Source of the DNA: Amycolatopsis thermophila
Lineage (GTDB): Bacteria > Actinomycetota > Actinomycetes > Mycobacteriales > Pseudonocardiaceae
Direction of reading: 5' to 3'
DNA length: 64,000 bases
NCBI RefSeq assembly: GCF_030814215.1
Contig: NZ_JAUSUT010000001.1
Coordinates: 1,240,001-1,304,000, forward strand
The notes beneath the pieces were generated by a model. The model was not told where the DNA came from. It saw only the letters and a program-made list of their open reading frames with translations, and did not search any database. Positions 20,326 to 21,874 of the stretch are shown piece by piece (position 1 is the first letter of the stretch; every line of letters begins with the position of its first letter). The position numbers and the translations under genes were made by a program.

Positions 20326-20370
20326 CGCTCGACCTCCCTGCGGGTAACGCCACACCGACCTGGAGCGACG

Positions 20371-20384
20371 TCAACTGATGTTGA
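20371..20384. promoter_or_regulatory. Palindrome between maoC-type and corA transcription units
   Basis: TCAAC-TGAT-GTTGA is an inverted repeat 46 bp upstream of the MaoC-type gene and 86 bp upstream of the corA leader start. It could be an operator for either divergent unit. No regulator gene lies beside it. Confidence 0.35.
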
Positions 20385-20469
20385 GGAGTACCCTCGACCA
20401 ATGGCGGCGGTGCGTCAACGCGACAGCCGCCACGTTGCCGGTCCGGCTGGAGGAGGTGAGGAACGCACG

Positions 20470-20547
20470 ATGAGTAGTGGCGATAGTCCGCTCCCTAGTA
20501 ATCCCAGCGTTTCCCTCCGAACGGCCGGGGCCCTTTCTCGCCGTTAG
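20470..20547 (+). CDS. Putative 25-residue leader peptide upstream of corA
   Basis: The frame from ATG 20470 to TAG 20547 encodes MSSGDSPLPSNPSVSLRTAG followed by ALSRR. It has a very strong ribosome site, GGAGGAGGTGAGG, 8 nt before the ATG. The sequence holds three Pro within six residues (7, 9 and 12) after an Asp. Four of its six Ser codons are AGT, a rare codon in such genomes, so slow translation is plausible. The left arm of a 12-bp inverted repeat begins inside the Pro12 codon. Leader peptides rich in Pro and acidic residues sense Mg2+ in enterobacterial mgtA and mgtC leaders. Transfer of that idea to this gene is inference. Confidence 0.5.
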   Translation: MSSGDSPLPSNPSVSLRTAGALSRR

Positions 20548-20572
20548 ACGGTATTTCCCCGGGAAACGCTGG
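20504..20572 (+). promoter_or_regulatory. Nested inverted repeats in the corA leader
   Basis: CCAGCGTTTCCC (20504-20515) and GGGAAACGCTGG (20561-20572) are perfect 12-bp complements. Inside them AACGGC (20520-20525) pairs with GCCGTT (20540-20545), a stem that reaches the leader's stop codon. A ribosome paused on the Pro codons would cover the left outer arm. The element therefore has the geometry of a translation-dependent RNA switch. Confidence 0.5.
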
Positions 20573-20576
20573 TGGT

Positions 20577-20604
20577 GCCGGGCGGACACCTGTGCCCGCC
20601 CGGC
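20577..20604 (+). terminator. G+C-rich hairpin before corA, possible attenuator
   Basis: GCCGGGCGG (20577-20585) pairs perfectly with CCGCCCGGC (20596-20604) around a 10-nt loop. It stands 35 nt before the corA start and follows directly on the right arm of the leader repeat. No T-run follows, so it may be an attenuator, a pause hairpin or a simple fold in the 5' leader. Confidence 0.45.
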
Positions 20605-20639
20605 GGTCGTGGTACGCACTGCGAAAGCCAGGAGATCCC

Positions 20640-21725
20640 ATGCCCGCGATTCCCTCCCTCGGTGGCCTGCGCGGCCGGGGCAACGGCCGGTCCAGCCGGG
20701 TCGCGCCCCCGGTGCCCGTGCCGGTCTCCGCCTACATCGTCGACTGCGCCGTGTACGTCGACGGTGCGCGGCTGCCCGGGCGCTGGACCCACGCTGAGGC
20801 CATCAAGGAGGTCCGGCGGCGGCGGGACGGGTTCGTCTGGATCGGCCTGCACGAGCCGGACGAGCGGCAGATCCAGGGCATCGCCGACGTCTACGGCCTG
20901 CACGAACTCGCCGTCGAGGACGCGGTGCAGGCGCACCAGCGGCCCAAGCTCGAGCGCTACGACGACACGCTGTTCATGGTGCTCAAGACGGTCCGCTACG
21001 TCGAGCACGAGTCGCCGACCACGGCCAACGAGATCGTCGAGACCGGCGAGCTGATGGCGTTCCTCGGGCTGGACTTCATCATCACCGTCCGGCACGGCGC
21101 GCACTCCGGCCTGGCCCGGCTGCGCCGCGACCTCGACGAGGACCCGGAACGGCTCACCAACGGCCCGGCCGCGGTGCTGCACGCCATCACCGACCTGATC
21201 GTCGACCAGTACCTCGACGTCACCTCCTCGATCGAGGAGGACATCGACGAGATGGAGACGCGCGTGTTCGCGCCCCGGTCGCCGGTCAGCGCGGAGCAGA
21301 TCTACCTCATGAAACGCGAGGTGCTGGAGCTGCGCCGCGCGGTGTTGCCGCTGGTCACGCCGGTGCGTCGGCTGGCGGAGGGCTTCACCCGGCTGGTGCC
21401 GGACGAGGTCCGGTCCTATTTCCGGGACGTCGACGACCACCTGACGACCGTGTCGGAGCGGGTGGGCAACTTCGACGAACTGCTGACCACGCTGGTCGAC
21501 GCGACGGTCGCGAAGATCACGCTGCAGCAGAACACCGACATGCGCAAGATCACCGCCTGGGCGGCGATGATCACGGTACCGACGATGATCGCCGGTATCG
21601 AGGGCATGAATTTCGACTTCATGCCGGAACTGCGGTGGCAGTTCGGTTATCCGGTGGTCCTGATCCTCATTCTCGGGATCTGCCTGCTTCTTTACCGAAT
21701 ATTCAGGAAGAACAACTGGCTCTAG
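20640..21725 (+). CDS. corA: CorA-type magnesium/cobalt channel
   Basis: The 361-residue protein has the CorA order: a soluble alpha/beta N-terminal domain, the long stalk helices (IEEDIDEMETRVF to DNxxTTVS-type region around 190-290), transmembrane helix 1 with the signature EGMNFDFMPEL (GMN at 322-324), helix 2 and a basic tail RIFRKNNWL. It mediates Mg2+ uptake across the cytoplasmic membrane as a pentamer. AGGAG lies 6 nt before ATG 20640. The leader peptide and hairpins upstream suggest post-initiation control. A 37-residue membrane peptide gene follows. Confidence 0.95.
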   Translation: MPAIPSLGGLRGRGNGRSSRVAPPVPVPVSAYIVDCAVYVDGARLPGRWTHAEAIKEVRRRRDGFVWIGLHEPDERQIQGIADVYGLHELAVEDAVQAHQRPKLERYDDTLFMVLKTVRYVEHESPTTANEIVETGELMAFLGLDFIITVRHGAHSGLARLRRDLDEDPERLTNGPAAVLHAITDLIVDQYLDVTSSIEEDIDEMETRVFAPRSPVSAEQIYLMKREVLELRRAVLPLVTPVRRLAEGFTRLVPDEVRSYFRDVDDHLTTVSERVGNFDELLTTLVDATVAKITLQQNTDMRKITAWAAMITVPTMIAGIEGMNFDFMPELRWQFGYPVVLILILGICLLLYRIFRKNNWL

Positions 21726-21760: not shown

Positions 21761-21874
21761 GTGACCAGACTGCTGACGAACCTCAAGTTCTGGGCCCTGG
21801 CCCTGGCCGTCGTGTGGATCGCGGTGGTGGCGGTGCTGGTGGCCGACCACCCCGAACTCGCGCAGGCGCACTGA
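21761..21874 (+). CDS. 37-residue single-helix membrane peptide downstream of corA
   Basis: The frame from GTG 21761 to TGA 21874 encodes VTRLLTNLKFWALALAVVWI and a further hydrophobic run ending in a short ADHPELAQAH tail. That is one transmembrane helix of about 20 residues. A strong AAAGGAG sits 7-8 nt upstream, and the gene follows corA by 35 bp. Proteins of this size often modulate a neighbouring transporter, so a CorA partner is possible. That is inference from position only. Confidence 0.65.
   Translation: MTRLLTNLKFWALALAVVWIAVVAVLVADHPELAQAH

Follow-up and report, generated by a model that had tools for sequence, protein, structure and literature searches.

A conserved, probably translated leader of the magnesium channel gene corA in Pseudonocardiaceae, with the anatomy of enterobacterial Mg2+-responsive leaders

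Introduction

Sensing of Mg2+ by hindered translation of short leader peptides with acidic and proline residues has been described for enterobacteria. In Salmonella and E. coli, the corA leader carries the upstream open reading frame (uORF) corL, whose translation lowers corA via Rho, with expression that depends on Mg2+ (PMC11552253). In mgtL, the leader of mgtA, ribosomes drop off at an early EPDP motif at low Mg2+ (PMC11282234). A third case, mgtQ, precedes Salmonella mgtB, and its acidic codons and stems that mask the ribosome binding site control mgtB translation; there, a silent change of a Pro codon acted like removal of the Pro, so it was the pairing that mattered and not the proline (PMC8092293). 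Within actinobacteria, the uORF Rv1805A lies under the pe20 M-box of M. tuberculosis, and its Pro7 is mostly conserved (PMC12810186).

The DNA analyzed here is a 64,000-nt stretch (the window) of the 7.3-Mb genome of Amycolatopsis thermophila. An earlier note on it had described a Pro-rich leader peptide with an unusually strong ribosome site before corA and proposed it as a candidate Mg2+ sensor that is probably translated slowly and may be a new regulator. The claim of novelty holds in part. Among the open-access literature matches listed, there was no report of a leader uORF for an actinobacterial corA, but since enterobacterial corA has the leader uORF corL, a precedent that the note had not mentioned, this kind of leader is already known (PMC11552253).

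Results

The corA locus. The gene lies at 20640 to 21725 on the forward strand and encodes a CorA-family Mg2+ channel of 361 aa (PF01544, E 2.8e-57; against TIGR00383 it scores 193.4 bits, under the cut-off of 200.75). It is preceded by the ribosome site CCAGGAG (20628 to 20634, forward strand). A GTG at 20592 was rejected as the start, the conserved one being the ATG at 20640 with its Shine-Dalgarno (SD) sequence. The source genome also holds a second, distant CorA-family gene (L025, G000:C1:5975660-5976538, 34% identity). Upstream of the corA leader, a divergent MaoC-like gene starts at 20355. In the genus alignment, the block GAGTACCCT is kept together with the promoter-like element GCGACG-N18-TACCCT (20365 to 20394, forward strand), a weak consensus match that is possibly the corA promoter; a sigma-70 consensus scan gave no site. 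Of the 52 non-redundant leaders, 44 have a loose GAGTA-type pattern 5' of the uORF, a raw count.

Downstream, 35 nt after corA, we observed a frame of 37 aa (MTRLLTNLKFWALALAVVWIAVVAVLVADHPELAQAH, 21761 to 21874, forward strand) with a ribosome site and one hydrophobic segment. A relative follows corA at 18/19 genus loci and at 10/25 of the other family loci examined. It had no NCBIfam match, and its product is possibly a small membrane partner of CorA.

The uORF and its codons. The 25-codon frame reported earlier was confirmed at 20470 to 20547 on the forward strand and is more than a chance frame. It encodes MSSGDSPLPSNPSVSLRTAGALSRR followed by a stop, and its strong ribosome site, GGAGGAGGTGAGG, lies at 20449 to 20461 on the same strand. 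Across the family, 92 of 95 leaders carry GGAGGTG(A/G)G at most 22 nt from the uORF start, these leaders having been chosen in part for such a site. The peptide has Asp at position 5 and Pro at positions 7, 9 and 12, and codons 2, 3, 6 and 10 are AGT, as the note had read them. In 43 script-picked genes of the window, AGT makes up only 15 of 689 Ser codons (2.2%); CCT accounts for 19 of the 890 Pro codons there, and GAT for 69 of the 843 Asp codons. Within their first 25 codons, 36 of these 43 genes have no AGT and seven have one; the uORF has four.

Conservation in the family. Every same-genus corA leader has the frame (19/19), and a uORF or a recognizable form of it was found upstream of corA at 96 of 100 loci of the family Pseudonocardiaceae. 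These 100 loci comprise the 19 of the same genus and 81 others, read from 106 other family genomes with a match. The analyzed uORF is present in 95 leaders, in L116 it sits further upstream, and four leaders (L096, L102, L104 and L106) have none. For distant genera, the uORFs were chosen by eye among frames that had a ribosome site before them, and a few are doubtful (L138, L145, L146 and L150). Two outcomes had been named beforehand as refuting the proposal, namely absence of the frame and drift without codon-level conservation; neither occurred at the 96 loci. In the source genome, the uORF core has a single match at up to 3 mismatches. Outside the family, an early D/E-S-P/A uORF was not flagged at 33 corA loci by a rough filter that also misses some family members. 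Family f8 of the order was considered as a carrier of the same leader and rejected, as no common uORF was seen in 12 aligned loci; by eye, TAGCAT stands shortly before corA in nine of these 12.

For the comparisons below, leaders more than 80% alike were merged, reducing 93 leaders to the 52 non-redundant ones; L137 and L140, with overlapping uORFs, were left out. All 52 have the uORF frame open, against 14 and 11 for the two other forward frames. Openness alone is weak evidence, because two antisense frames are also open in most leaders (43 and 45 of 52; within the genus, 19 and 18 of 19). Stronger evidence for coding is the pattern of synonymous changes. Within the MSSGDSPLP of the 37 leaders of that type, all changes are synonymous: Ser2 is AGT in 26, AGC in 7 and TCC in 4, Gly4 is GGC in 36 and GGT in 1, and Leu8 is CTC in 27 and CTT in 10. 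Codons 3, 5, 6, 7 and 9 are constant, so that GAT-AGT-CCG (Asp5-Ser6-Pro7, 20482 to 20490, forward strand, identical in 37/37 and the proposed pause or drop-off point) and CCT are unchanged. Pro7 and Pro9 are invariant in this set, and Pro12 occurs in only 10/37. Synonymous sites vary more in the first corA codons of the same genomes than in MSSGDSPLP. Comparison of the loci thus shows both a conserved frame and codon constraint.

A search with the exact core returned 61 contigs (51 Amycolatopsis, 5 Prauserella, 3 Saccharomonospora, 1 Qaidamihabitans and 1 unclassified actinomycete MAG). A CorA start lies downstream in 58 of them and the CorA GMNF motif in L221; L193 is cut short, and L182 has the corA start and then an assembly gap. 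The search pattern fixed most of codons 4 to 10, so these contigs give nothing new on those codons. Beyond the pattern, Ser2 is AGT in 36, AGC in 14, TCC in 10 and TCG in 1. Codon 3, also beyond it, is AGT in 60 contigs, and the one exception has ACT (Thr). In two species (L210 and L217), the uORF has expanded in frame to 43 codons.

These data bear on the idea that the conserved stretch is an RNA element, such as an aptamer or a protein site, in which the frame is incidental. Constraint on the nucleotides at GATAGTCCG and at AGTA does exceed what the amino acids need. However, Ser2 varies among AGT, AGC, TCC and TCG, Gly4 and Leu8 change only synonymously, and the expansions stay in frame. 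Moreover, the Rfam search of the window gave no match for the leader, and one other Rfam search gave a single minus-strand hit at chance level (E 0.46, far below the gathering score). We regard an RNA element with an incidental frame as very unlikely. The M-box (RF00380) was found neither in the window at the gathering score nor in the genome at E 0.001, a search whose controls rang in 2 of 14 genomes.

Hairpin H1. The earlier note had not described a hairpin that the uORF forms with the RNA behind it. The strand CCAGCGTTTCCC (20504 to 20515, forward strand), within uORF codons 12 to 16, pairs perfectly with GGGAAACGCTGG (20561 to 20572, forward strand), which lies 13 nt past the uORF stop and is called here the switch strand. 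Family-wide, the R/S-V/I codons tend to pair with the post-stop strand despite different letters. Covariation was assessed with arms anchored without regard to pairing, in 33 of the 52 leaders (19 dropped) and with pairs 1, 2 and 4 set by the anchors. Pair 3, which involves the first base of the Val/Ile codon, is G-C in 23 and A-T in 10 leaders with zero mismatches, and double-change cells numbered 31 versus 9.8 under permutation (0 of 2000). The arms were paired at 84%, versus 78% when permuted and 41 to 44% when slid. Pairing of the C-terminal half of the uORF with the post-stop stretch also exceeded that obtained when partners were permuted among genomes (z -4.85). All permutation tests in this work ignore the tree and count sequences rather than events, so relatedness inflates every one of them, and scans that pick the best helix, for H1 as for SD pairing, are biased towards pairing. 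When the post-stop stretch was shuffled, H1 reached p <=0.05 in 27/52 leaders and was not significant in 25/52; for the longest uORFs, the tested stretch stops before or inside the arm. The whole leader of the window folded no better than shuffles (z -1.11, 29 of 200). A further hairpin, H2 (GCCGGGCGG / CCGCCCGGC, 20577 to 20604, forward strand), is predicted by folding and, judged by eye, is absent from some genera.

H1, with its covariation, also bears on whether the uORF peptide acts in trans, for example on CorA. The conserved N-terminus would suit such a role, but the C-terminal half drifts while its RNA pairing is kept, and the peptide is without a hydrophobic segment; this explanation is scarcely credible.

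Spacing of the acidic codon and the AGT codon. An acidic residue and a Pro both occur within uORF residues 2 to 14 in 89/95 leaders. Distances to the H1 arm could be counted in 45 of the 52 leaders, seven being without an anchor. An acidic residue stands 8 or 9 codons before the arm codon in 39/45, versus 8.3 after shuffling (0 of 5000), and is missing there in 6/45. Offset 8 is acidic in 17/44 and offset 9 in 22/43. Offsets 1 and 7 each had a single acidic residue, offsets 2 to 6, 10 and 11 had none, and 14 lay at offsets 12 to 18, in longer peptides. Among long uORFs, with the arm at codon 16 or later, 11/12 keep the acidic residue at 8 or 9. An acidic residue precedes the arm in 41 leaders. 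Their distance from start to arm varies between 35 and 62 nt, while the distance from the last acidic codon to the arm is 25 or 28 nt in 38 of them. The position of the acidic codon thus follows the hairpin and not the start.

AGT stands three codons before the arm codon in 44/45 leaders, and in L081 four codons before. Here AGT(A) lies at 20497 to 20500 on the forward strand; no other point of the leader is as constant across the family (A 45, G 44, T 44 and A 40 of 45), and AGT occurs as a codon from codon 6 onward in 52/52. By eye, no pairing partner for it was found. A Pro lies 4 to 6 codons before the arm in 37/45 leaders, so the Pro-rich signature stressed in the earlier note stands as one part of a pattern that also includes the acidic residue and AGT. 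Ribosomes usually cover about 15 nt ahead of the P site, so a ribosome halted on Asp-Ser-Pro would end just short of the H1 arm, and a few codons later it would invade the arm. In these alignments, the fixed spacing of the acidic codon to the arm, together with AGT, is the geometry of an attenuator. Slow translation, as the note had proposed, or aborted early translation is thus plausible, with the Asp, Ser-AGT and Pro codons kept and the acidic codon at a fixed distance from the arm.

The same attenuator could respond to another signal, with elongation speed setting corA according to overall translational status (EF-P, EttA, charged tRNA-Ser or tRNA-Pro, or ribosome inhibitors) instead of Mg2+. 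The near-invariance of a rare AGT three codons before the arm and the commonness of Pro codons would agree with this, as would the single acidic residue of the window's peptide, given that in enterobacteria EttA rescues the leaders where two acidic residues are paired (PMC11282234). On the other side, the residue tied to the spacing is the acidic one, the regulated gene is a Mg2+ channel, and the known leaders of Mg2+ transporter genes respond to Mg2+ (PMC11552253, PMC8092293). We consider a signal other than Mg2+ unlikely, at about one chance in four.

Possible masking of the corA ribosome site. A candidate anti-SD, CTGGT (20569 to 20573, forward strand), is shared with H1 and can pair with GCCAG before corA. 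Across genomes, the end of the H1 3' arm pairs better with the SD region of its own corA than with SD regions taken from elsewhere in the set (z -4.6 at offset -8 and -4.5 at offset -6; none of 20000 permutations), a signal that fades within SD types (p 0.014 to 0.030 in type B and 0.065 to 0.082 in type A). In windows neighboring the switch strand, the signal drops. Windows counted from corA also show dips, at 82 to 68 nt (z -3.0), 76 to 62 nt (z -2.7) and 52 to 38 nt (z -2.2) before the gene, of which the first two probably cover the same switch strand. The pairing is striking in L115 and L121; in the present leader it is modest, with 5 pairs, and absent from the lowest-energy fold. An ensemble model of access to the SD compared a ribosome on codons 5 to 7 with one on the H1 arm. 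Over 48 leaders the mean difference was 0.64 kcal/mol, with 16 above +1 and 7 below -1 (p 0.22), so that the model leaves the two states unseparated, and the present leader taken alone goes the expected way (1.7 to 3.4).

Other outputs were also considered. A classical amino-acid attenuator was rejected, as no intrinsic terminator (a hairpin and then a T run) occurs in 20340 to 20660. Two further pairings were discarded: the N-terminal uORF sequence as an anti-SD for corA, for which matched pairing was no better than permuted (z -0.9 and -1.2), and the uORF SD with the corA SD (z +0.55). In L225 and L226, two genomes of another genus (g17), a GTG uORF whose N-terminus, STGDSPV, is similar to that of the window's peptide opens 62 nt upstream of corA and, out of frame with it, reaches 64 nt into the gene. 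This overlap fits uORF translation opposing corA, and the condensed leader is a hint that the N-terminus is the sensor.

The sign or the output may nevertheless differ from what we propose, with H1 as the off state, or with Rho termination in the leader in place of ribosome-site masking. The uORF-codon stem of Salmonella mgtQ is part of its off state (PMC8092293), the output of corL is Rho-dependent (PMC11552253), and the SD-access model did not separate the two states. Coevolution of the switch strand with the SD and the overlapping uORFs of L225 and L226 speak against it, and we hold this alternative to be rather unlikely, at somewhat under one chance in three. The alignments support, without settling it, a pairing between the switch strand and the corA ribosome site, and masking of that site appears a likelier output than Rho.

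Discussion

The existence of a translated, cis-regulatory corA leader, as first proposed from the letters of one genome, is well supported by the comparison of loci. We think it fairly probable that this leader is a cis-acting, translation-dependent attenuator of corA, working like enterobacterial corL, mgtL and mgtQ. A ribosome would start the uORF at its strong ribosome site. If it paused or dropped off at the early Asp-Ser-Pro, its front edge would stay just short of the H1 arm, H1 would form, the post-stop strand would be tied up and corA would be expressed. With efficient elongation, H1 would be melted and the freed strand would lower corA. Pairing of this strand with the corA ribosome site is the likeliest route, and termination by Rho is the alternative. 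If the leader behaves as mgtL, mgtQ and corL do, drop-off would be favored at low Mg2+ and corA would be turned on. From these precedents we infer that the corA leader senses Mg2+, and the pausing or drop-off and the direction of control are inferred likewise.

A more far-reaching proposal, which we advance tentatively and hold to be somewhat less probable than its opposite, is that a nascent-chain Mg2+ sensor for corA, equipped with a built-in ruler, arose in Pseudonocardiaceae independently of enterobacteria. The acidic residue 8 to 9 codons before the arm would let the RNA fold report the fall-off of ribosomes at that residue, and the near-invariant AGU three codons before the arm would add a second checkpoint. 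If this is true, destabilization of the ribosome at low Mg2+ would be a sensing principle used across phyla, and an actinobacterial case with a conserved ruler from acidic codon to hairpin would suggest that the principle is general. The leader would also offer a way to control corA in a genome in which the M-box search found nothing. Predictions for single codons follow from the attenuator reading.

Among the systems described, corL shares the position of a uORF in a corA leader, and its alternative RNA structures that involve the uORF are like those proposed here. For corL, the inverse relation between uORF translation and corA was measured and the output through Rho was established, whereas in the present leader the relation is proposed and Rho is a candidate output (PMC11552253). 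The conserved N-terminus of corL is described with a single proline, the two peptides being set side by side by description, and its described features include no ruler from acidic codon to stem, unlike the present leader (PMC11552253). With mgtL, the leader shares early acidic and Pro codons (EPDP versus GDSPLP) and a short uORF before the gene of a Mg2+ importer (PMC11282234, PMC11552253); mgtL differs in having two acidic residues instead of one and a downstream gene of another family, and its Rho output is for the present leader a candidate one.

In mgtQ, as here, a strong AGGAGG site, early acidic codons and stems made with uORF codons occur together, and its control of translation by masking the ribosome site is the output proposed for the present leader. 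However, the stem made with uORF codons is the off state in mgtQ, whereas H1 is proposed as the on state, and mgtQ lies between two operon genes, whereas the present leader follows a putative promoter. The silent change in mgtQ is a warning against taking Pro as the sensor here (PMC8092293). Rv1805A is likewise actinobacterial, with a small conserved uORF in a Mg2+-linked leader, but it is governed by an M-box aptamer and does not precede corA (PMC12810186), and no M-box was found in the present genome.

Of the features of the corL/mgtL class, the leader has a short uORF ahead of a Mg2+ transporter gene and early acidic and Pro codons in that uORF. As for two exclusive structures, H1 covaries, and the alternative pairing is backed by coevolution and not by the folding model. 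Without being filed as a member of that class, the leader resembles corL, mgtL and mgtQ by its anatomy, and the distance between the hosts suggests an origin independent of CorL and MgtL.
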